Source: a virus
Virus record (IMG/VR): IMGVR_UViG_3300008267_011103
Span: 1 to 37,417 of that record
Reading direction: 5' to 3' (one strand)
DNA length: 37,417 nucleotides
The notes under the pieces are model-generated. The model ran no database searches, had not been told where the DNA came from, and saw only the letters and a program-made list of their open reading frames with translations. Shown here piece after piece: positions 2,804-22,284 of this stretch; the first letter of the stretch is position 1, and each line of letters begins with the position of its first letter. Made by a program: the position numbers and the translations under genes.

Positions 2804-3187
2804 GGGGGTAAAAATGGTATTGACTGGCATTGTTAATTGTTCGGGGCACGCAGTGAGAAGATTCCTATCACTTAAATCTACGGATTCAAATTTTAGACGG
2901 CAACGTACTAGACAAAATGGCGACTATCGGTTTAATCCGTGAAAACGCTGAAGTTGTAGCTTAATAGTTAAGAAACAACAACGGGTCGGTGAGTGTATAA
3001 CCCAGGAACAGAAGCTCTTTAGGGGTTGAAAAATGACTGAACCCTAAATCGAGTCGTCCATTGGTTGTTAGTTTACGATGGTGAAGAACAAACTAAATAT
3101 TTTGGAATGTTAGAAAACATTATCCTAAGCGTGTAGTCCTTAATAGTTAAGGTGAACAACACGGCGGTTCGACCCCGCCTACCTCCA
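2804..3187 (+). ncRNA. ssrA: Transfer-messenger RNA (tmRNA)
   Basis: The tRNA-like domain is clear: the 5' end GGGGGTA (2804-2810) pairs with TACCTCC (3180-3186), followed by discriminator A 3187. The T arm is GGCGG-TTCGACC-CCGCC. CCA is not encoded. The message part contains an in-frame tag ending GAA GTT GTA GCT followed by TAA TAG (2962-2967). From the ATG at 2917 the tag reads MATIGLIRENAEVVA. By analogy with E. coli TAGTC-GCA, the resume codon might instead be AAA 2914, after TAGAC. Known tags end mostly in LAA or VAA; this one ends in VVA. tmRNA charged with alanine and bound by SmpB rescues ribosomes stalled on broken mRNA and marks the product for Clp proteases. smpB lies just downstream, convergent. 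Confidence 0.93.
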
Positions 3188-3191
3188 CTTT

Positions 3192-3277: not shown

Positions 3278-3712
3278 TTAAATATTTCTTTTCATATCCC
3301 GATCAATGTCTCGATTTTTAATTGATTCTCTTTTATCATAAAGTTTCTTACCTCGACCTAATACAATTTCTACTTTAATCAAACCTCTGTCATTAATGAA
3401 AAGTTTATACGGAATAATCGCTAATCCTTTTATTAATTGATTCTCCAATTTTCTTAGTTCTTTCTTCTTGAGTAATAGTTTTCTATCTCTATTAGTTTCG
3501 TGGAAAGTTCCATACCCATAATCTGAAATAGTCATTCCTTTAACGAATAATTCACCATTACTAAAATAACAATAACTCTCTGAAATTGAGGCTTTATTTC
3601 CCCTAATAGATTTTACCTCAGACCCAATTAATTGAATTCCTGCAATTTCGGTTTGGATAAATTCGTATTCAAACTTTACTTTTTTATTAACTATATTAAC
3701 CGAATGTTTCAT
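3278..3712 (-). CDS. smpB: SsrA-binding protein SmpB
   Basis: A 144-residue protein of normal SmpB length with the family's landmarks: the OB-fold segment GIQLIGSEVKSIR near residue 25-37, the RDRKLLLKKKELRKL helix, and the basic tail GRGKKLYDKRESIKNRDIDRD. SmpB binds the tRNA-like domain of tmRNA and places its C-terminal tail in the empty mRNA channel of a stalled ribosome, mimicking an mRNA and anticodon. The lysine- and arginine-rich tail needed for this is intact. Together with the adjacent tmRNA gene it makes a complete two-part trans-translation system. The promoter box at 3717-3724 lies four bases before the ATG. Confidence 0.96.
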   Translation of the reverse strand: MKHSVNIVNKKVKFEYEFIQTEIAGIQLIGSEVKSIRGNKASISESYCYFSNGELFVKGMTISDYGYGTFHETNRDRKLLLKKKELRKLENQLIKGLAIIPYKLFINDRGLIKVEIVLGRGKKLYDKRESIKNRDIDRDMKRNI

Positions 3713-4217: not shown

Positions 4218-4290
4218 TAGCATCGAGTTGGAATCGAACCAACTTAATTCGGCTTATGAGACCGATGAGATACCTTACCTCCCCCCTGCT
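4218..4290 (-). tRNA. tRNA-Met(CAU)-like element with imperfect acceptor stem
   Basis: Canonical parts are visible on the minus strand: D arm GAGG-TAAGGTA-TCTC, anticodon arm TCGGT-CTCATAA-GCCGA with anticodon CAT and U33, a five-base variable loop, and T arm GTTGG-TTCGATT-CCAAC. The acceptor stem is poor: the outer four pairs form (AGCA/TGCT), the next two positions are G-A and G-G, and one extra base separates it from the T stem. No CCA is encoded. It lies within the long non-coding transcript, about 420 bases before its terminator. It may be a diverged elongator, initiator or Ile2-type tRNA, or a tRNA-mimicking domain of the larger RNA. Confidence 0.65.
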
Positions 4291-5159
4291 ATGTTAGGCT
4301 GAGATTACACCTATTTGTGAGAACCTTTACAAGTATTATTGTTTCCCTTGTTATCCACTCCCTTTTGAAGAGTATTTCTCAATGACGGTCTTTTAAGTTT
4401 ACCACTCTTTGAGGTATCAATTACTCTCTCATTACTCAACTCTCTTCGAGGATGCCTCCCCAACACATTCTTGCGGAATTAGAGGTTTTTGGTAAGAATA
4501 CACTCAGACTTGGGGTCTTTGTGTGCAATGAACGGCTCATTACTATGTAGTCACCTTTCATCGATACCTGATAGACACTTTTCCTTATTGATTTTTTTAA
4601 TTTGGAATTAAAAGATTTCCATAAGTTTCGTGTCGTGGATGTGTCGAAGTAGTGGTCTATCGTAAGCTCAGTCATCTTTTGAACAACCGAATACTTGACT
4701 ACTCCGTGAGATGTCCCCATCTCCATTTTTTAAGTTTACTTCATACCACAACCTTGGTGGGTTGTTAGTAAGGATAGTAGCGACACCACTCGTTCTCCAT
4801 CTTACCTTTCGGTTTTAAGTCCACTCTTAAATTGGAACCCGTAATCATATGATTAGATAATCACACTTTTTACTTGATTCCTATGGGTTATTCTTATTGT
4901 TCTTCCGAACTCAACCAAACAATCCACATTGCTTGGTCATTAAACCACTTTCCCTAAAGCGTTGCCCTCAGTACTAAAGGTCTAATGATATCCCACTTGT
5001 ATACTCGAGCTCAGTTTCCCAAGCCGCAGAATCACTAACACAAGTAACCCCACTTTATCCTACTTTCGTAGTTTATTTAACGACCATATACGGCCGATTA
5101 TCGTTTCTCGAGTTATCATCACTCCGAAGAGTTACTTTCACCCGATGGATAATTCACTA

Positions 5160-12082: not shown

Positions 12083-12352
12083 TTAATTAAAACCATAAGG
12101 ATTTAATTCACTACCAATAGGTAAGTTTTGTAGTTCTAACATTTCCTCAGTTATTTCTTCGGGAGTTAAGTATCCTTTAACATCAGAATCACAACTTCTC
12201 CAAATTTCAAAAGTATTGATACCATCACCATATAAACCAACGCCTCCACCAACAACCGAAATTTTGTGACCATTATCAAACTCCATTATAGCTTGTTTTC
12301 CACCTGTCAAACTTTGTTTTGGTTTGAACTCTAAATCTTTAAATGTTTTCAT
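12083..12352 (-). CDS. Hypothetical protein
   Basis: 89 residues, acidic, soluble, not recognised. It starts MKTFKDLEFKPK, has a glycine-rich stretch (VVGGGVGLYGDGINTFEIW) and an acidic C-terminal half with TPEEITEEMLELQNLP. The glycine-rich beta pattern around a conserved-looking FEIW might be a small binding domain. A TACATTTG box lies four bases before the ATG, so it belongs to the leaderless class. Single-gene transcript ending at 11921-11946. Confidence 0.65.
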   Translation of the reverse strand: MKTFKDLEFKPKQSLTGGKQAIMEFDNGHKISVVGGGVGLYGDGINTFEIWRSCDSDVKGYLTPEEITEEMLELQNLPIGSELNPYGFN

Positions 12353-12429: not shown

Positions 12430-12450
12430 AAAATTACTTTATGATAAATA

Positions 12451-12762
12451 CTATTCGATATCACTTAGAAAATCATTAATCTTGTCACTATAATAAGCAC
12501 AACTACCGGCAATATCTTCCAATTTATTCAAGTTATCGGTTGATTCATTATTACTTGACTCATCTATTATATTGTATAATTCTTCTGATAGGTTGTAACA
12601 TTCTCTCATAACTTCTTCAAGTTCGTATAAAGCGTTTGATATTTTAACACCTAGGTCTTGAAATTTATTGTCATAAAAATCTAAATTAGAATCATCTTCT
12701 TTAATAACACGTTTTACAATTTTATGTAAATCCGATTCTGTAAGTTTTATAGTTTTTTTCAT
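12451..12762 (-). CDS. Candidate capsid-targeted protein with I-x-E N-terminal peptide
   Basis: 103 residues from ATG 12762. An in-frame ATG at 12816 lies in the preceding terminator and is rejected. The N-terminus MKKTIKLTESDLHKIVKRVI-KE is an amphipathic helix ending V-I-K-E. In T4, internal head proteins are targeted by a short N-terminal peptide that is removed after I/L-x-E by the prohead protease. The same pattern starts several other proteins here. The rest is acidic, helical and Asn/Ser-rich. Function of the mature part unknown. An ATATTTAT box lies 25 bases upstream. Confidence 0.7.
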   Translation of the reverse strand: MKKTIKLTESDLHKIVKRVIKEDDSNLDFYDNKFQDLGVKISNALYELEEVMRECYNLSEELYNIIDESSNNESTDNLNKLEDIAGSCAYYSDKINDFLSDIE

Positions 12763-12787
12763 ATTATTTTTTTTTGGTTTATACAAT

Positions 12788-12795
12788 ATAAATAT
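12788..12795 (-). promoter_or_regulatory. ATATTTAT box (candidate late promoter)
   Basis: ATATTTAT on the minus strand, 25 bases before ATG 12762. Confidence 0.4.
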
Positions 12796-12805
12796 GTTAT
12801 AAAAC

Positions 12806-12835
12806 AAAAAACCCACCTTTTTGGGGTGGGTTTTT
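12806..12835 (-). terminator. Intrinsic terminator of 12838-13185
   Basis: AAAAACCCACC-TTTTT-GGGGTGGGTTTTT; nearly symmetrical, so it may act on both strands. It lies two bases beyond the stop codon. Confidence 0.8.
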
Positions 12836-12837
12836 AA

Positions 12838-13185
12838 TTATTTTTGGTTTTTATCAAACCTTTTGTCTGTGTATTTTTTACTATCAAGATTACATTCTTG
12901 TATTTCTTTTGAAATCTTGTCGTCTAAATACTTAAAATCTTCCGAACGATGTCTATGAATAGTTTCATAGTTATCATTAATCGTCCTGTATAGATTTTGA
13001 TTTGATTCATCTATTCTTCTGTGAATGTGACTCATCATATCATCGTAATCTCTACGCATGTTCTCAACATTCTTTTCTAACCTGAAGACCTTAACCAAAC
13101 CTACAACAACTAATCCAACAAAAATTAGACCCATCATCGAAAGCACACCTAAAGTAAAATAAGTTATTCCCATTTTTTTAAACAT
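12838..13185 (-). CDS. Membrane-anchored coiled-coil protein
   Basis: 115 residues. One N-terminal membrane span (residues about 8-34, TLGVLSMMGLIFVGLVVVGL), then a long charged helix rich in Arg, Asp, Glu and His, likely coiled coil (RLEKNVENMRRDYDDMMSHI and onward). No cleavage site. Similar in plan to 7118-7450. Perhaps an envelope or lysis-related protein, but no family is recognised. Its upstream region lacks a clear box of either promoter class. Confidence 0.65.
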   Translation of the reverse strand: MFKKMGITYFTLGVLSMMGLIFVGLVVVGLVKVFRLEKNVENMRRDYDDMMSHIHRRIDESNQNLYRTINDNYETIHRHRSEDFKYLDDKISKEIQECNLDSKKYTDKRFDKNQK

Positions 13186-13225
13186 TTATTTTTTTATACC
13201 TCAAAGGGTAATAAATTATAAATGT

Positions 13226-13795
13226 TTATTTTATTAATGTCAAATGTCCGTGGTCAATATATTGTCTACCTCTTCTATCTTTCCATTTTAGAATATAAAT
13301 GTAAGTATCTTCTTGACACATTTTACCTTGGTAAGTTCCGTCCCAACCAGTATCTAAACTATTTGATGTAAATACTAAATTACCCCATCTATTCATCACA
13401 TAAAAATTCACATCTTTAGTGTTAAACCCCTTTGGTAACCAAATTTCATTTAAGTTATCACCATTTGGTGAAAATGAATTTGGTACATACATTGTTATTT
13501 GGTCACATTCTTTAGTTGTTACTTGAAAATAAACAGGTTCAGAAGGACAATTATTTATAGAATTAAAAGTTACAATTATGTCGTAAATACCTATTGGATA
13601 TTCTCCCCAATCAATTGTTAAATTTGTACCGCCTCTAACAAGAACATTATTTAAAAACCAACTAATACTACCCATCTGATTAGAACTTGTTGAGTATGTA
13701 AACGTAACATCGTCTCCCTCACATATCTCAATTTCCTGTTGTGAAAACATAAACACAGGTAGGATAAATAATAATATGTAAAGTAATTTTTTCAT
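13226..13795 (-). CDS. Secreted protein with gliding-motility-type C-terminal domain (T9SS type B)
   Basis: 189 residues. A Sec signal peptide ends near residue 19 (MKKLLYILLFILPVFMFSQ). Residues about 22-95 form an Ig/PKD-like domain (CEGDDVTFTYS, ISWFLNN). The C-terminal 90 residues are the CHU_C/gliding-motility-associated domain: VPNSFSPNGDNLNEIW, NRWGNLVF, WDGTYQGK, DTYIYILKWKDRRG. This domain is the type B signal that sends proteins through the type IX secretion system of Bacteroidota. It is the last gene of an operon whose upstream member overlaps its ATG by one base. A T9SS cargo only makes sense in a Bacteroidota cell, so the host must be one. Confidence 0.88.
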   Translation of the reverse strand: MKKLLYILLFILPVFMFSQQEIEICEGDDVTFTYSTSSNQMGSISWFLNNVLVRGGTNLTIDWGEYPIGIYDIIVTFNSINNCPSEPVYFQVTTKECDQITMYVPNSFSPNGDNLNEIWLPKGFNTKDVNFYVMNRWGNLVFTSNSLDTGWDGTYQGKMCQEDTYIYILKWKDRRGRQYIDHGHLTLIK

Positions 13796-14352
13796 TAGTC
13801 GTGTTGTATTGGTGATAATGTTGGCACTGGATTAATAACAACCCCTGTGGTTGTTGTAAATGTACATCCACCATTAGTATAGGTATAAGTTATTGTACTA
13901 TTATTAGTTCCAGGACAATATTGATTACCCGTGACACCTACACCCGAAAAAGTTCCGCCAGTTGGTGTTGCTGATAACGTAACACAAGGAGCGTTAGGAC
14001 AAAAAGGTCCGATTGAAGTTATTGTTGGTGTTACCCTATAAATAAAAACACTAACTGACACAGGTGTTGCGGTACACCCACCTGAACTAGTAAAGTTAAC
14101 GGTAACCGCATTATTAATTAACCCAGGAGCACATCCTGACCAATTAACTTGAATTGAAGTTGTTCCTTGTCCACTAACAATTGATGCACAAGCAGGAACC
14201 GTCCAATTATACGTACCTGCTCCCGCCGATGGTATTTGATATGTTGACAATGTTGTTGATTGATAACAAACCGTATCAGGGTTTATTGTAGTTAACTGAC
14301 CAAAGATTAATGTTGGTAGTAACATTAGTAAGAATAGAATTAACTTTTTCAT
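13795..14352 (-). CDS. Secreted Ig/PKD-like repeat protein
   Basis: 185 residues: signal peptide to about residue 19 (LILFLLMLLPTLIFGQ), then Thr/Ser/Gly-rich beta repeats of the kind found in Bacteroidota surface proteins (YNWTVPACASIVSGQGTTSI, then GGTFSGVGVTGNQYCPG). The VSGQGTTSI element is the same as the repeats in the 1850-residue protein at 16139-21691. It lacks a T9SS sorting domain and ends PTLSPIQHD, similar to the end of the neighbouring 14372-14974 product (LGTISHN). Exported by Sec at least to the periplasm. Part of the secreted operon. Confidence 0.75.
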   Translation of the reverse strand: MKKLILFLLMLLPTLIFGQLTTINPDTVCYQSTTLSTYQIPSAGAGTYNWTVPACASIVSGQGTTSIQVNWSGCAPGLINNAVTVNFTSSGGCTATPVSVSVFIYRVTPTITSIGPFCPNAPCVTLSATPTGGTFSGVGVTGNQYCPGTNNSTITYTYTNGGCTFTTTTGVVINPVPTLSPIQHD

Positions 14353-14371
14353 TTTGTTGTTTTTTTATTTT

Positions 14372-14974
14372 TTAATTATGACTTATTGTCCCTAAGTTTA
14401 TTGGTACTACATTTATTGTTCCATTGAATATTGTATTAGGTGTTACGACATCACAAGACGTACTATTATAACTTCCCCATAATCCATCAGGACCTGCGGT
14501 TACTTGTATTTGTAAGTTTTGTGGTGTACAAGAGTTTGCAACCGTAAGAGTAACACAAAAAGACCAAGAACAATTCCCACCTGATTGTGAATCACCATAA
14601 TCATTTCCCGGATTGTTATCGTTATTTAAATCAAAAAAGTATCCAGGTCCAACCGTTACAACTGGTGTTGCGTTAGATGTTACAGAATTTTTCCAAACCC
14701 ATTGACCTCCTGTAGAATTACCACCACAATTTGCGGGTGGTGTTTGTGGGGTTACTGAAGCCCAACCAGGTCCTAAATTTAAATCAAAACCTTCAAACCA
14801 ATTAGAACTTGTTTGGGTAAAACTATTTAAAGTGTAACATAAGGTAACTACTTGTCCTGAATTATACGTGTTGTTTACAGGTGGTGGTGTTAATGTAAAA
14901 GTTTGTGATCCGGCACATTGTGAATAAATTTTAACATTTAATATTAAAAACAAAAACAATAATACTTTTTTCAT
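14372..14974 (-). CDS. Secreted hypothetical protein
   Basis: 200 residues with a signal peptide (residues 1-18, VLLFLFLILNVKIYSQ). The mature part is Asn/Gly/Thr-rich beta protein with cysteines and aromatic clusters (NWFEGFDLNLGPGW, GYFFDLNNDNNPGNDYGDS). The Asp/Asn-rich DLNNDNNPGND could bind calcium. No T9SS domain; the end INLGTISHN resembles that of the next gene. Its ATG overlaps the stop of 14974-16059 by one base. Not recognised as a named family. Confidence 0.72.
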   Translation of the reverse strand: MKKVLLFLFLILNVKIYSQCAGSQTFTLTPPPVNNTYNSGQVVTLCYTLNSFTQTSSNWFEGFDLNLGPGWASVTPQTPPANCGGNSTGGQWVWKNSVTSNATPVVTVGPGYFFDLNNDNNPGNDYGDSQSGGNCSWSFCVTLTVANSCTPQNLQIQVTAGPDGLWGSYNSTSCDVVTPNTIFNGTINVVPINLGTISHN

Positions 14975-16059
14975 TATTTTAAATTTACAACCTTTTTATA
15001 AGACCCATCTGAATAAATTTTTATTACAACTCCGTGTTGGTTTTCATCAACAACCCTTCCTGTTAAATCTATTGTTTTAATCAGATATGGTTCATCATCA
15101 TACGTGTTATTAATATAAATAGGTCCGTAGTACTTAATTGTTCCATTAAAATCAGTTTGTCTTAACATATAATAATTTAATGAATTATCTTTAAATTCCT
15201 TATCTTCAACTTTATAATTTGTGGGTTCAGATGTTGTTCCTTTTCCATCTAATTGGTCAATATCCACCCATATTACACCATCAACACTTCTTTCCAAGAC
15301 AAAATAATCGTTATTTAATTCGGTCTCAGTTCTCCAAGTAATTTCGTTGTGTGTTTGTTTTTTAACCGCCTTATATGATGATATTGTTACGGGTAGTGGA
15401 GCACAAGGAGCTATCTCAATTAAACTCATATTATCTAACCACCATTCTTCACCATTAGCATTTACCCTACAAAGAATATCAATCGCTAATTGGGAAATTC
15501 CTGTTAAAGTTAATGTGATATCCGAATATCCGTCACCTGTTGTTGTTCTATTTCCACCACCAGCTGGGGTATATGTTGTTAAAACACCATCCGCGGTTTT
15601 ATTTATAACACCAAGAGTATTGTAGTTCCAAGTCGCGTTACCATTTCCTGTAATTCTAATTTCAGATGTGTATGAAATCTCACCATTTGTACTAACTTGT
15701 ACTTCAACCAAATCAGTTCCATCAACACCTCTAGAAGTTGCGGTTGAATTGGTAAAGGTATAACTACCCAACCTCATTTTAAATTGATAGGTGTAGGAAG
15801 GATTGAGCCCAGTAATGTTAGGTAAGACGTACCAATCTTGTTCTATTGCTGATGAGCCACTACCACCTCCATATATCACTGCACTTGTTGTTGGTGATAC
15901 CGAAGCGTCAATATAATAACTACTATTTAATGTATTGCCAAACCAAAGACCAACCCAGTCATAATTTTCAATATTGTCATAAGCAACGGTTGTGGTACAG
16001 GTTTGTGATTTTAAACTGAATGAAAATATTAATAAGAATATGACTAATAGTTTTTTCAT
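14974..16059 (-). CDS. Secreted protein with T9SS-type C-terminal region
   Basis: 361 residues: signal peptide (1-18), a jelly-roll-like domain of about 200 residues (YDNIENYDWVGLWFG, WWLDNMSLIE), then a Bacteroidota surface-protein segment LPVTISSYKAVKKQ, WRTETELNNDYFVLERSVDG, YYMLRQTDFNGTIKYYGP. It ends with a short beta domain (IKTIDLTGRVVDENQHG through YKKVVNLK) that matches T9SS type A sorting domains in plan. First gene of the operon that runs to 13226. A TATATTTG box lies seven bases before the ATG. Confidence 0.82.
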   Translation of the reverse strand: MKKLLVIFLLIFSFSLKSQTCTTTVAYDNIENYDWVGLWFGNTLNSSYYIDASVSPTTSAVIYGGGSGSSAIEQDWYVLPNITGLNPSYTYQFKMRLGSYTFTNSTATSRGVDGTDLVEVQVSTNGEISYTSEIRITGNGNATWNYNTLGVINKTADGVLTTYTPAGGGNRTTTGDGYSDITLTLTGISQLAIDILCRVNANGEEWWLDNMSLIEIAPCAPLPVTISSYKAVKKQTHNEITWRTETELNNDYFVLERSVDGVIWVDIDQLDGKGTTSEPTNYKVEDKEFKDNSLNYYMLRQTDFNGTIKYYGPIYINNTYDDEPYLIKTIDLTGRVVDENQHGVVIKIYSDGSYKKVVNLK

Positions 16060-16066
16060 ATCTTAC

Positions 16067-16074
16067 CAAATATA
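16067..16074 (-). promoter_or_regulatory. -7 box of the secreted-protein operon
   Basis: TATATTTG on the minus strand, seven bases before ATG 16059. Confidence 0.55.
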
Positions 16075-16138
16075 TTTCTCAAATCACATTTTTCTTTATG
16101 TGTTTGAATCGTCCTTAAAAAATTTAAAATCTTCCTTA

Positions 16139-19100
16139 TCATTCGATTATAAATAATTCTTTAATTAATGTATTGTTTTTGTTATCTCTAACCATTATAA
16201 AATATATCCCTGTATTAAGGTTGATTAAGTTTATTTGGTCTTCGGATTTATTATAACCCGAATAAACAACTTGTCCTAAACTATTCTTAACCTCAACAAA
16301 ATAAATATCACTTTCACCTCTAAAAACTCTAAATTCCATAATTCCTTTACCAGGATTTGGATAAACGATAAAATCTAAATTTCTATTTTCATTATCATCT
16401 AAACCAACCATTCTTACATCACAAACTTTATTAACCCCAAAATAACCCATAGGACTTGACCCACAAGTGTTTACTCCCATAACACTAAAAGTCCCCCCAA
16501 AAAATGATGATGATGTTTTAGCGTAAACCACATTACCCGTAGTTGAACCAATAAAAGAAGTTCCATTAGGGTTACTCCAAATATAACTTGTATTTCTTGG
16601 TGATATTGATGCGGTTAACATTATAGTGTCAGGAAAACAAGCTTGATTTATACCTGTAATTGTCGGTCTTTGTGTTAGTAACCCAATTCTTCTAGTACTT
16701 TTTACGGTACCACAAGAAAATTGTGTTGTTAGTCTTATACTATCACAAGAGTTATTAATACAAGTTGATTCAAAATTGTTAGGGAAAAATACACTTATAG
16801 AATTAGTTCCCTGACCACTAACTATTTGAGCGTTGTTCGGTACAGACCAAGTAAATGATAATGCTCCCGTTGTAGAGACACTATAAGTATTTGTGTAACC
16901 ATTATCAACACAACTTGAACCATTAATTGTAACTAATGGAAGACCTATTGTAACATTTTTAGTTAGTGTCACAGGATTTCCACAACTACCCGTAATAACC
17001 AATTGAATATCACCACCAGTGAATCCGTTTTGAAATGTGACCCAAATCGAATTTGTTCCTTGACCACTAACTATTGTTGAGTTAACGGGAACTGACCAAT
17101 TGTAATTAACCCCACTTATTGGTGTGACACTAAAATTTGTTGAGGTATTTGTTCCGATTATACTACAAACACTTCTTACCCCAGATATTGGAGAAGATGA
17201 AATGGTTGATTGAGTTGTTGATAAAGTTTTAGTTGATGATATACTACCGCCACATCCATTATTTAGATTAACACTAATTGTTCCTGAAACAAACAAGTTA
17301 GATACTAATACATTTATAACATTAGTTCCTTGACCCGATTGGATTGTCATATTTGTTGGAACTGACCAAGTAAATGTTCCACTTTGATTTGTTACACTAT
17401 AAGTTACCGACTGACCTAAGTATGGACATAAATCACCAGGTCCTGTTATCGTACCAATATTAGAATAAAGATTGTTATTAGAAACACTATAATATGTCAT
17501 CGGTGAAGAACCACAAGGGTTAACTGACATAACACTAAAATTACCACCAATAAAAGTTGTACTAAACTTAACTCTAATAGTATCATTACCTTGACCACTA
17601 ACTAAACTACATCCATTAGGTAAACCCCATATATAACTAAACGCTGTCGGTACCGAATCAACTCTATAAGTATAAATTGTGAAATTATCTGCACATATAC
17701 TAGAATTTCCAATAATTGCGGTAGGTCTATTAACTAATTTATAGACTTTAAATTCCGACTCACTTTGACCACATTCATTAGATGCAAGAACACTAACAAT
17801 ACTTCCATTAGTAAAATAACTATTAGCGAATTTAAGTTTTACGGTATCATTACCTTGACCTGAAAAAATATTAACCCCGTAAGGTTGAGTCCAAGTATAA
17901 GTAACTCCTGGTGTTGAGTTTGTAACAACATATTGGTTAATAGTCCCTGATGTTGGAGAACAAACATTACCCGACACTATTGGGTCTAATGGTCTACTTC
18001 TAACATAATAACTTCTTGTATAAACCATTGCACCTGAATATACGTTTACTTTAATACTATCTTCATAAAAACCATCGTCAAAAATTACCGATACAGGGTT
18101 ACTATGTAAGTTAGTTGAATGAGCGTTATTTGGTAACACCCAAGTAATACTATCTGGATTATCTCCCGAATAGTTTATCGTATAATTAATTGGATTACTT
18201 GTTTGAGTTGATGGGCACACAACTACATCACCCGAAATGTTTCCAACAACTATTGTTGGTACATTACAACCTAAATTTATTGTAGTTTGTGTTGTACAAT
18301 TTTTAGAATCTGTTACGGTTAAAGTATAATTTCCTGAAGAAACATTTGTTAAGTTTTGTGATGTTGAACCATTTGACCAAGAATAAAAATATGGTGGAGT
18401 TCCACCAACAACTGAACTATTAATAACCCCATTACTTGAACCACAAGTTGGTGTTACTGAAATAGTGGTTGAAATACTTAATAAACTTGGTTCAGATACG
18501 TTATATGTCGACATTTTATTACAACCCTTACTATCTGTTATTGTTAGATTGTAATTACCTGCAGTTAAATTACTAATCGTATTTTGATTGCTACCATTAC
18601 CCCATAAAATAATATAAGGTGATGTTCCACCTGAGATGTTTGTTACTGAAAGACTACCATTATTTTCACCAAAACAATTTACATTTGTAACTGAAGTGGT
18701 AAGTGTAATTGTTGATGGTTGTGTGATTGTAACTGAGTTGGTTGTTGTACAACCTTTACTATCCGTAATTGTTACTGAATAAGTGTTTGCCGGTAAGAAA
18801 TTTAAATCCTGATTAGTAGAACCATTAGACCAACTATATGAATATGGTGAAGTTCCACCACTTGGGGTTAAGTTAATACTACCATTCACACCATTAAAAC
18901 AACTAACATTTACGGAAGTTAATGACGATGTAAGTAACGTAGGTTGTGTGATTGTGACTGAGTTAGTTGAACTACATAGGTTGTTATCAGTAATTGTAAC
19001 TGAGTAATTACCCGATGTTAGGTTAGATATATCTTCAGTTGTTCCACCATTTGACCAACTAAAAGTAAAAGGACTATTTCCTGTCGGTGTTAAATCTATC

Positions 19101-21691
19101 GAACCATCACTACCACCATTACAAGAAACATTGATTGAAGTGAGTGTTGAAGTTGGTGGGTAAACCACAACCCAAGTTGATAATATGTCGTATGAATTAT
19201 TTGAACAACCAATACCTGTTGTACAATTTCCTCTTCTACCTCTAATTTGAACCGTAACCCCATCATTTAAAGATGATGTTGATATTGTCGTACCAGGAAT
19301 ATAATTTGACCAAGAAGTTCCGTTAATTGTATATTGAAATATGTCAGAACAACCAACCCCACTACTTCCAGAATTAAATGTTGCGGATAAATCAGTTCCG
19401 ACACAAACATTATTAGTGTTTGGTGTTTTAGTATTTAATGTCGGATTAATCGGGTCAGGAATAACCGTAACCGTATGGATGTTTGATGTATCTTTACAAC
19501 CATTACCATCTGTAACAATAACCCTATAATCTCTCGTTACGGTTGGTGTTGCGTTTATTGTTGAAGTTATTACCGTATTTGACCAACTACCACTATTAAA
19601 TTGCCATTGATAAGTGTATGTCGGTATTCCCAATGTAACTGATGAAGTTATGTTGTTTGTCCCTGAACCACCCGCACAAATCTGTGATGTACTTGGTATT
19701 GTAACAATCGGACTTGTTGCTAAAGATAATGTAACCGTATTTGAGTTTGTTGATTGATTACAACTATTTGTAACTTGAACGTAGTAGTTTCCAAGAGTTG
19801 ATGTTGAATATGTATCACTATTAGCTCCCGATATACTAACTCCGTTACGATACCATTGATATGTAAATGGTGTTCTAACCCCTGACGCAACAACTGAAAA
19901 TGTTTGTGGTGTTGTACAAGTTTGTAAATTAATTGGTTGGGTTGTAATAGTTGGTGGTGATGAAGTATAAGTCACACCTAACTGAAAGTTTCCTTTTGCA
20001 CTTCCATAACCTGTAACCAAAACATAATAGTCAGTATTGTTTGTTGAACTAATTGTGACTTGGGATTGAGATGAACAAAAATCATCATTATAAGTTAAAC
20101 AAGTTAATGAACCACAAACACCAGTATAAACAAATAATTTGGTGTCAAATGAAGTTCCTGTACATAAACTTAAAGTGATATTTTGTCCATTACCAACGAC
20201 CTTATACCAAACACCTGGCGCTGTCCAAGTTTCAAACGCTGCGGTATAACAAACGGGAGCGTCACCTGTTTGAGTTGCGTAATTAGTACTTCCATTCCAA
20301 GTTACATCACAAGTCGTAGAAATTGCACCTGAACATAAATCATTTGATGGGGGTGGAATACTACACTTTACTTGTTTGGTTCTACTTGTTGCTTGTGTAC
20401 CACAACTACTATTAGTGTGAACATAAACCCTAACAACTTCATCTGAAGTTGGTGTGTATGTTATCGGTGTTGTTCCGTAAATATATTTTGTTGTTCCACC
20501 ACTATTTGTTATGGTGATAAAATCCGTAGAGACTGAACTATTAAATGTATATTGAACGTTTGAAATTAAACTAACGTTCGAGTATTCACCCGCATATCCT
20601 AATGTTGTAATGTTTTCAAAAGAACCCGAACAAGATGGTGAGTATGTTGTGGATGGATATAAACTTCCGTTTGTACATCCAGGGGTTGTGGTTGTAAATG
20701 ACCAAGTTGAACAACTTAAAGCCGTACCTGCCGAATTTTTAGGGATTATTTTCCAATAATAAGTGGTTGAATTTGACAACGTTGGTGTGTATGAAGTTCC
20801 CACTTGATTAGTCACAAATGGTGGTGAACTATTTGTCCCGAAGTAAACATCGTAACTTGTTGCACCACTTACGGTACCCCAATTTAAAGTTTGTGTTAAT
20901 AAAATGTCCGTTGAATTATTTGTTGGTGATGTTAGTGTTGCACAAACAGGTATTGCGGTATAGGTTAATATTACACGACCTGCCGCACCCGCTCCACCAT
21001 TTCTCGATGTGGTATTGTTTTTATAAGCTCCACCACCTCCACCACCAGGTGTTGAACCTGCCGTCCCATTACCACCTGAAGCGTGTCCACTACCACCATT
21101 ACCACCACCTGCAGGAGCGGTAGCTCCCGCGGTTCCCGTAGCGTCGACACCATTTAAAGAAGTGCCCGCACCTGAACCTCCACCTCCAGCGGTTGCGCCA
21201 CCAACTCTACCTGAACCACCACGATATATTGTTTGTCCTACTGAACCTGTTGTTGTCCCAACACCAGATGTAATACCGACCGCACTTTGTCCACCTTTAG
21301 CTAAAACACCATCATTGGACGATGTAGGAGATGAGTTAGTTAATTCATTAACCCAAGTGTCATTTCCGTTCGCTGCGTTACCTGATGTTCCAGTTCTTGA
21401 TGCTCCAACCACCCAATAAATAATTTGACCAGGCGTTACGGATATTGTTGATATAGAATGAGCTCCTCCCGCCCCACCGGCTAAACCACCTGTTCCTGTA
21501 GTTGATTGTCCTGCTCCCGCACCTCCACCACCCCAAGCATCAATCTTAATTGAATACACGTTTGAAGGAACTATCCAAGAACCTGAACCAGAACCTACTA
21601 AAGCTCCTGATGCCGGCATTGCGGTCTGTGAAAATGATTTAATACATAGTAAGGTAAATAGAGTTAAAAATATGTATGTTATTTTTTTCAT
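16139..21691 (-). CDS. Giant SprB-like secreted adhesin with T9SS type A sorting domain
   Basis: 1850 residues. In order: signal peptide (1-21); a glycine-rich domain (about 28-240) starting WIVPSNVYSIKIDAWGGGG, as in phage fibre and bacterial surface proteins; a fibronectin-III-like domain (about 250-335); a PPC-like domain (about 450-580); Ig-like modules; four SprB-type repeats (about 870-1150; SCNGGSDGSI, SCFNGVNGSI, NCFGENNGSL, TCGSSNGVI, each with FSWSNG-like cores); five PKD-like modules with SGQGN/T; and a C-terminal T9SS domain containing VYPNPGKG and NLNTGIYFIMV. SprB repeats are known from the gliding adhesin of Flavobacterium. The protein should cross the outer membrane by T9SS and stay on or leave the cell surface. 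It lies directly upstream of four further secreted-protein genes. Confidence 0.88.
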   Translation of the reverse strand: MKKITYIFLTLFTLLCIKSFSQTAMPASGALVGSGSGSWIVPSNVYSIKIDAWGGGGAGAGQSTTGTGGLAGGAGGAHSISTISVTPGQIIYWVVGASRTGTSGNAANGNDTWVNELTNSSPTSSNDGVLAKGGQSAVGITSGVGTTTGSVGQTIYRGGSGRVGGATAGGGGSGAGTSLNGVDATGTAGATAPAGGGNGGSGHASGGNGTAGSTPGGGGGGAYKNNTTSRNGGAGAAGRVILTYTAIPVCATLTSPTNNSTDILLTQTLNWGTVSGATSYDVYFGTNSSPPFVTNQVGTSYTPTLSNSTTYYWKIIPKNSAGTALSCSTWSFTTTTPGCTNGSLYPSTTYSPSCSGSFENITTLGYAGEYSNVSLISNVQYTFNSSVSTDFITITNSGGTTKYIYGTTPITYTPTSDEVVRVYVHTNSSCGTQATSRTKQVKCSIPPPSNDLCSGAISTTCDVTWNGSTNYATQTGDAPVCYTAAFETWTAPGVWYKVVGNGQNITLSLCTGTSFDTKLFVYTGVCGSLTCLTYNDDFCSSQSQVTISSTNNTDYYVLVTGYGSAKGNFQLGVTYTSSPPTITTQPINLQTCTTPQTFSVVASGVRTPFTYQWYRNGVSISGANSDTYSTSTLGNYYVQVTNSCNQSTNSNTVTLSLATSPIVTIPSTSQICAGGSGTNNITSSVTLGIPTYTYQWQFNSGSWSNTVITSTINATPTVTRDYRVIVTDGNGCKDTSNIHTVTVIPDPINPTLNTKTPNTNNVCVGTDLSATFNSGSSGVGCSDIFQYTINGTSWSNYIPGTTISTSSLNDGVTVQIRGRRGNCTTGIGCSNNSYDILSTWVVVYPPTSTLTSINVSCNGGSDGSIDLTPTGNSPFTFSWSNGGTTEDISNLTSGNYSVTITDNNLCSSTNSVTITQPTLLTSSLTSVNVSCFNGVNGSINLTPSGGTSPYSYSWSNGSTNQDLNFLPANTYSVTITDSKGCTTTNSVTITQPSTITLTTSVTNVNCFGENNGSLSVTNISGGTSPYIILWGNGSNQNTISNLTAGNYNLTITDSKGCNKMSTYNVSEPSLLSISTTISVTPTCGSSNGVINSSVVGGTPPYFYSWSNGSTSQNLTNVSSGNYTLTVTDSKNCTTQTTINLGCNVPTIVVGNISGDVVVCPSTQTSNPINYTINYSGDNPDSITWVLPNNAHSTNLHSNPVSVIFDDGFYEDSIKVNVYSGAMVYTRSYYVRSRPLDPIVSGNVCSPTSGTINQYVVTNSTPGVTYTWTQPYGVNIFSGQGNDTVKLKFANSYFTNGSIVSVLASNECGQSESEFKVYKLVNRPTAIIGNSSICADNFTIYTYRVDSVPTAFSYIWGLPNGCSLVSGQGNDTIRVKFSTTFIGGNFSVMSVNPCGSSPMTYYSVSNNNLYSNIGTITGPGDLCPYLGQSVTYSVTNQSGTFTWSVPTNMTIQSGQGTNVINVLVSNLFVSGTISVNLNNGCGGSISSTKTLSTTQSTISSSPISGVRSVCSIIGTNTSTNFSVTPISGVNYNWSVPVNSTIVSGQGTNSIWVTFQNGFTGGDIQLVITGSCGNPVTLTKNVTIGLPLVTINGSSCVDNGYTNTYSVSTTGALSFTWSVPNNAQIVSGQGTNSISVFFPNNFESTCINNSCDSIRLTTQFSCGTVKSTRRIGLLTQRPTITGINQACFPDTIMLTASISPRNTSYIWSNPNGTSFIGSTTGNVVYAKTSSSFFGGTFSVMGVNTCGSSPMGYFGVNKVCDVRMVGLDDNENRNLDFIVYPNPGKGIMEFRVFRGESDIYFVEVKNSLGQVVYSGYNKSEDQINLINLNTGIYFIMVRDNKNNTLIKELFIIE

Positions 21692-21804: not shown

Positions 21805-22284
21805 TTAGTTATAAATAAACCAATCAGGGATATTCCTATTTTTCCAATTTGCAAAATCTTTTTTTTCTTTTCTATAGTATTCTCTATAAGAATCGATAGC
21901 GTTTCCTATTTTACACTCAACAGGCATCGCTAAAGCGAACGGAGTTAATTCTCCAACACTTTTTATTTTAGGTTTATTTGTTATACACCACTCAATAACT
22001 TCCTGTGATTTATGTCTTTTACCGTATCTGTATGTGTATTCGGAACACAATTCCATACCTAAATCACATAACCATACATAATTTTCATAACACTCTCTAA
22101 CCCAAATAGAACAAGGGTGATTTTTATGAGATAACTTATAAGGTACTTGGTCGGTTACTTGTTCGGTCATATGGTGAACCCCACATAAAAGTTGTGCGGT
22201 TTCAAGTATCATTTTAACAACGTGTTTGTCACAATGATATTCAGCACACTTTTTTGGTTCATAATCTAATACAAAAATATTCAT
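21805..22284 (-). CDS. Conserved phage protein of unknown function (CDKHVVKMILE type)
   Basis: 159 residues. The pattern MNIFVLDYEPKKCAEYHCDK, HVVKMILETAQLL, HPCSIWVRECYENYVWL, EYTYRYGK, TPFALAMP, and SYREYYRKEKKDFANWKNR is shared by a protein found in many phages and some giant viruses. The paired Cys and His residues near the N-terminus (C13, H17, C18, H21 by rough count) suggest metal or nucleic-acid binding. I know no tested function. It forms an operon with the next two upstream genes. Confidence 0.75.
   Translation of the reverse strand: MNIFVLDYEPKKCAEYHCDKHVVKMILETAQLLCGVHHMTEQVTDQVPYKLSHKNHPCSIWVRECYENYVWLCDLGMELCSEYTYRYGKRHKSQEVIEWCITNKPKIKSVGELTPFALAMPVECKIGNAIDSYREYYRKEKKDFANWKNRNIPDWFIYN

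Follow-up and report, generated by a model that had tools for sequence, protein, structure and literature searches.

What could a virus gain from a row of secreted-protein genes, some of them ending in sorting domains of the type IX secretion system (T9SS), and how could those products that have no such domain take part? The question was raised by a 37,417-base stretch of DNA from an IMG/VR virus record (IMGVR_UViG_3300008267_011103), called the window here at its whole length, in which five consecutive minus-strand genes run from 21691 down to 13226. The last three of them (14974 to 13226) form a cassette encoding a tip, a middle and an anchor protein, which recurs in other viruses both as separate genes and as fused chains. 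Our favoured reading, to which we assign a probability of about 0.6, is that the block encodes phage surface proteins which the infected Bacteroidota cell exports and that the mobile cassette is one fibre split in three.

The five open reading frames (ORFs; 16139-21691, 14974-16059, 14372-14974, 13795-14352 and 13226-13795) were confirmed, with short or overlapping junctions and a one-base overlap in two pairs. Each product begins with a Bacteroidota-type signal peptide, consisting of MKK, a hydrophobic stretch and a Gln at the likely cleavage site, as judged by reading the sequence with no dedicated predictor, and the first-pass annotation of this DNA, which had described five secreted-protein genes in a row, was borne out in this respect. 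The same annotation had placed T9SS sorting domains on three of the five products and had proposed searches with hidden Markov models (HMMs) for the type A and type B domains. These searches yielded two domains above the curated cut-offs, a type A domain on 16139-21691 and a type B domain on 13226-13795, and gave no support for the third, on 14974-16059. None of the five proteins matched the PADLOC models of known anti-phage defence.

Structure of the tip, middle and anchor

The tip (14372..14974, minus strand; 200 aa) and the middle (13795..14352, minus strand; 185 aa) are secreted proteins in which the Pfam and NCBIfam HMMs detected no type A or type B sorting domain. The middle contains PKD-like and Ig-like domains. 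The two proteins are otherwise unrelated and have a common ending, I-x-H-[N/D]: the tip closes with LGTISHN (14375..14395, minus strand) and the middle with LSPIQHD (13798..13818, minus strand), each followed by the stop codon. I197, H199 and N200 were invariant in the family alignment of the tip (A7), and I182 and H184 of the middle were invariant in 49 sequences. The AlphaFold2 (AF2) model of the middle (predicted local distance difference test score, pLDDT, 89) showed two beta domains with the tail as a coil at the end, past the last strand, which ruled out that the motif is a strand of the last domain. A role as a DNA or RNA signal for the downstream start was also rejected, owing to synonymous codon variation, differing gaps between tip and middle genes, and tails with no close downstream cassette gene.

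The anchor (13226..13795, minus strand; 189 aa; family A6) is a secreted protein made of an Ig-like domain and a type B (CHU_C) domain and nothing else. The type B domain scored 59.5 bits with TIGR04131 (cut-off 35) and 59.3 with CHU_C (cut-off 27), and the length of the mature protein is about that of a type B C-terminal domain (CTD) alone. In the AF2 model of the anchor (pLDDT 91; predicted template modelling score, pTM, 0.62) both domains were folded, with uncertain relative orientation. The matches of the middle and anchor models in the PDB (Foldseek) were generic Ig folds, including fragments of Aureispira GhpA. No close relative of the anchor of the window itself came up in a scan.

Split and fused forms in viruses

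The order tip-middle-anchor was first met elsewhere in L208 and L209 (numbers with L denote records of our collection), where the identity is 47-55% and the gene context differs. An ending of the IxH[ND] type, with Ile, Val or Leu in first position, was found in 22 of the 4,640 ORFs of the loci collected at that stage; 17 of these 22 were of the signal-peptide type by a crude score, and most of the 17 adjoin a type B gene. Scanning of viral contigs for the middle family gave 94 relatives, of which 80 were kept and collapsed to distinct sequences, and 51 distinct split middles were obtained. A recognisable anchor lay directly downstream in 44 of these 51, and the adjacent upstream ORF, present at 49, ended in [IV]xH[ND] in 47 cases, even where the domains were unrelated. 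In the tails of the 51 split middles, Ile and His were invariant while their codons varied synonymously, and the last residue was Asn or Asp in all except one (50/51). The tips switch among unrelated domain types on similar middle and anchor pairs: L325 and L341 share 88% identity in the middle and 74% in the anchor, and their tips, of 200 and 322 aa, have no meaningful similarity.

The same three parts were also found in the same order within a single chain in L042, L083, L088, L059 and L010 (521-602 aa), and fusions of middle and anchor occur in viral ORFs of 731-819 aa, including one in LR745206. The position of the cut corresponds to a linker, which reads '...PQPTISPITPYNEFYEICDGD...' in the fused chain and is represented in the split form by the ending '...PVPTLSPIQHD' and a new mature start, 'QQEIEICEGD'. 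Because these fused single-chain forms exist in other viruses, the separate tip, middle and anchor are considered to act together, and this is the strongest argument for their joint action. No cultured phage with the cassette was found, the matches in the phage collection coming from huge phages that are uncultured and from two weak records of metagenomic or single-cell origin. Plasmids gave only partial type B matches.

Host counterparts and the PorP/SprF shuttle

Comparison with host adhesins, which the first-pass annotation had suggested, showed that the host counterparts are long single chains among the genomes sampled. Across 148 Bacteroidota genomes searched, the middle domain lay, among the matches listed, within frames of 458-5126 aa only, and the tip domain occurred in 2 of 296 Bacteroidota genomes, inside frames of 419-2082 aa. 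In the host loci that surround such adhesins, none of the 368 complete ORFs had the IxH[ND] ending. The absence of the split form from hosts is a statement on these sampled genomes, which cover the hosts in part. One host metagenome-assembled genome (MAG) encodes a 1867-aa single-chain counterpart with the tip domain, weak middle-like domains and a type B domain, and its gene adjoins a PorP/SprF gene.

According to published work, a type B CTD of 150-235 aa is enough for secretion, a shuttle of the PorP/SprF family is needed, and orphan type B substrates share one shuttle (PMC12618676); PorP-like proteins also hold type B proteins on the surface (PMC9143113). By coordinates, 12 of the 38 type B matches in the MAG with the 1867-aa chain, which served as the control, adjoin a PorP/SprF gene. 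No shuttle gene, a neighbour that is usual and not obligatory for type B proteins, was seen near the anchor at 13226-13795. PF11751 had no match in the window and 43 other viral records, against 18 matches in the control MAG, and a phage-encoded shuttle was rejected for these 44 records.

Proposed assembly and alternative explanations

In the assembly proposed, each part would reach the periplasm via its own signal peptide. The I-x-H-[N/D] tails would mark the ends created by the splitting of the chain and probably serve to dock one part onto the following one. The anchor, which is essentially a free type B sorting domain, would take the middle and the tip with it, in trans, across the T9SS translocon of the host, and the complex would be held on a PorP/SprF-type shuttle of the host, which is proposed because no PorP/SprF gene was found in the phages. 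The infected cell would in this way be decorated with a binding tip chosen by the phage. Masking or replacement of receptors or exclusion of other phages on the one hand, and adhesion between cells or to particles on the other, seem the most likely uses and about equally plausible. Coating of the cell, competition with SprB, aggregation and receptor decoys, which the first-pass annotation had suggested, are candidate roles. The specific proposal that a short type B anchor brings proteins without a sorting domain to the surface in trans, their parts joined via the C-terminal I-x-H-[N/D] signal into a phage-owned modular fibre with interchangeable tips, either non-covalently or perhaps by a host transpeptidase, is more tentative, and we put it somewhat short of even odds.

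Several points weigh against an exported split fibre. Both the export of the cassette proteins and the contact between the parts are inferred. We know of no protein without a sorting domain that passes the T9SS, and carriage in trans is for this reason a new assumption. The position of the cassette is variable, lying near head genes in one lineage. The window lineage has no terminase match, and because of this its identity as phage rests on relatives and gene content.

The tip and the middle, having no sorting domain, would be left in the periplasm by their signal peptides alone. They could accordingly be independent periplasmic proteins, with the operon reflecting co-regulation and IxH[ND] serving a periplasmic partner or protecting the C-terminus. 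We consider this unlikely, since other viruses and a host have the same domains in one chain with a type B domain, and since Ig, PKD and SprB domains are of the types found in surface adhesins. A little less likely again, the short anchor and the CTD-only phage proteins might be competitors that occupy the PorP/SprF shuttles or the translocon and lower SprB display or T9SS output. The anchor contains little besides its sorting domain, secreted CTD-only proteins (93-126 aa) turn up repeatedly among the viral contigs, and gliding proteins are known as phage entry factors (PMC13288928); however, the anchor travels with the tip and the middle in a conserved order and has kept an N-terminal Ig-like domain that is needless for mere jamming. 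That the proteins decorate the virion or form its fibres is improbable. All of them carry signal peptides, which virion proteins assembled in the cytoplasm do not need, two have T9SS domains, and in most complete contexts a long distance separates the cassette from terminase, although Ig-like domains match Hoc-like and tail PHROGs and the lineage with nearby head genes would fit. These PHROG matches are confined to the Ig-like stretches of the 1850-aa protein described below.

If the cassette is indeed an exported split fibre, the phage would rebuild the exterior of the infected cell with the gliding and secretion machine of its host, and the tip could be exchanged as in a tail fibre. It would also mean that sorting-domain-free proteins can pass the T9SS by carriage in trans and that a new C-terminal assembly signal exists, and would provide a testable handle on rival exclusion or infected-cell stickiness by Bacteroidota phages. 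The motif and the cassette are easily searchable, and their small size suits tests in Flavobacterium johnsoniae.

Giant adhesin, 361-aa protein and accessory block

The first gene of the row (16139..21691, minus strand) encodes a giant adhesin of 1850 aa, consisting of a signal peptide, a glycine-rich domain, four SprB repeats, six PKD-like domains and a type A domain at aa 1776-1847, with Pfam and NCBIfam matches above the cut-offs. The type A domain scored 38.6 bits with TIGR04183 (cut-off 23) and 37.9 with PF18962 (cut-off 27). L143 and L145 have the adhesin at this locus too, with 88-89% identity, and it is predicted to be a conserved giant type A substrate of the T9SS.

The second gene (14974..16059, minus strand) encodes a secreted protein of 361 aa, whose N-terminal domain also occurs in phage L002 (68% overall) and, at 52%, in a protein of a host chromosome. 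A type A domain on it was rejected on the HMM searches, which gave no NCBIfam match even at E=10 and no Pfam match at 0.1. Its C-terminus is formed by a short conserved tail, VDENxxGxVIxxYxDGxxxK, recognised by no HMM and common to phage relatives; the carriers, all secreted phage proteins, are the window protein itself (14974-16059), L002:9995-11077, L004:42655-43092 and L213-L218. This tail could be a type A-related domain that is as yet undescribed. The N-terminal 224 aa are nearly identical to those of the L002 protein while the C-terminal module is far more divergent, which points to a module swap like that of the tips.

Alignment to L143 (a 106.8-kb contig) and L145 (a 52-kb contig) showed that these closest relatives keep the 1850-aa adhesin in place and lack window 12430..16048. 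Five in a row is therefore a conserved giant adhesin followed by an accessory block, which contains four of the five secreted genes together with two small ORFs (12451-12816 and 12838-13185). At the junction of the block, about 7 bp of common sequence lie directly ahead of a terminator-like hairpin. A second copy of the border sequence (80% over 45 bp) is located inside the block at 12791-12835, hinting at recombination between terminator-like repeats. The downstream flank gene (12083..12352, minus strand) shares 96-97% identity with that of the relatives without the block, and the pyrimidine-dimer DNA glycosylase gene in the upstream flank (21805..22284, minus strand) was used for finding relatives. 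That the 3.6-kb block, missing from the closest relatives and with domains also present in host chromosomal adhesins, is a recent pick-up of passenger host genes with no phage role is very improbable, since the three-gene order and the tail are conserved in about 50 distinct viral sequences and the split form was unseen in the sampled hosts.

Phage identity and sorting domains in other viral genomes

The description of the genome as phage-like stood. Besides the origin of the window from a virus record, its DnaK shares 59-68% identity over its length with DnaK of uncultured huge phages of 634-735 kb, its genes include a T4-type RNA ligase, a phage lysozyme, a pyrimidine-dimer glycosylase and an HNH gene, and much of it is collinear with the viral contigs L142-L145, protein identity reaching 98%. 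A terminase, which the first-pass annotation had hoped to see among the neighbouring genes, was not found within the window, phrog_2 having no match in it or its nearest relatives; in the set of cassette records and window relatives, where the contigs are mostly fragments, terminase was present in 7 of 39 records and strong in five. The dangers that the annotation had named, a chimera of phage and host sequence or a piece of bacterial chromosome, were excluded by the huge-phage-like DnaK, the adhesin at the same locus in two close relatives, the collinear viral contigs, the block-free relatives and the wide recurrence of the cassette in viral sequences. The locus belongs to the class of Cryophage, a sorting-domain gene in a genuine phage genome, as shown by the virus record, the viral relatives and the split cassette in terminase-bearing contigs. 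Elsewhere in the window, a tmRNA match (2804-3190, plus strand), an SmpB gene (3278-3712, minus strand), a tRNA (4219-4289, minus strand) and a full-length GOLLD RNA (4296-4706, minus strand) are clustered.

T9SS domains were also widespread in other viral genomes. In the viral collection, at least 120 stretches matched a narrowly defined DNA pattern of the type B motif, and the majority fell within ORFs for secreted proteins that have a type B ending. Type A and/or type B domains were present in each of the five huge phages tested (LR756502.1, LR745206.1, LR756504.1, LR756501.1 and LR756500.1; 462-735 kb), at up to seven places per genome. Secreted proteins of about 107-126 aa, in which a type B domain accompanies the signal peptide with no cargo, were seen repeatedly in viral contigs and huge phages, at L022:6237-6560, L051:12075-12401, L100:4352-4675, L109:431-754, L129:1667-1990, L131:2009-2359 and L005:43838-44218, with a lipoprotein-like version at L107:4146-4427. 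In two huge phages, a similar small type A secreted protein (L133:2084-2644 and L135:2055-2654) lies between a DnaJ-like gene and a large ORF, and this shared place suggests long-term maintenance.

Comparison with known systems

The first-pass annotation knew of no phage system that exports a gene set through the T9SS. This claim of novelty did not survive, nor did that of a first report of T9SS cargo in phages: Cryophage has three type A cargo genes, for which hijacking of the host T9SS and superinfection exclusion were proposed (PMC7468147), and crAss-BACON phages have proteins with T9SS domains (PMC6949934). Its view that phage genes use the host T9SS is well supported, the third sorting domain was not upheld, and the split-adhesin cassette had been overlooked. 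In the literature searched, open-licence papers only, no description of the split cassette or the IxH[ND] tail was found.

Cryophage resembles the window in its phage type A sorting-domain genes, which vary between strains and perhaps exclude other phages. Its cargo, however, is enzyme-like, single-chain and of type A, and in the passages covered neither a split cassette nor a type B anchor nor IxH[ND] tails are reported (PMC7468147). The T9SS sorting-domain proteins of crAss-BACON phages are mentioned near head genes with BACON domains, and no such cassette is described in that work (PMC6949934). Aureispira GhpA is likewise an Ig-like-domain protein of Bacteroidota, to fragments of which the anchor and middle models matched, but it is a single giant bacterial protein and the likeness does not go beyond the general Ig fold (TM-score by query 0.35-0.47).

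The orphan type B substrates of Flavobacterium johnsoniae resemble the anchor in having no linked shuttle gene, and use a common shuttle (PMC12618676); they differ in being host proteins whose cargo and sorting domain form a single polypeptide. The SprB-SprF system of gliding Bacteroidota has in common with the phage proteins the type B domain, the SprB repeats, the PKD and Ig domains and the anchoring to the surface by PorP/SprF (PMC9143113, PMC12618676). Its adhesins are long single chains, often encoded beside a shuttle gene, whereas the phage cassette consists of three short genes with no shuttle found. Phage cargo of the T9SS was already known, and the three-gene split cassette from 14974 to 13226 is the part that looks new.

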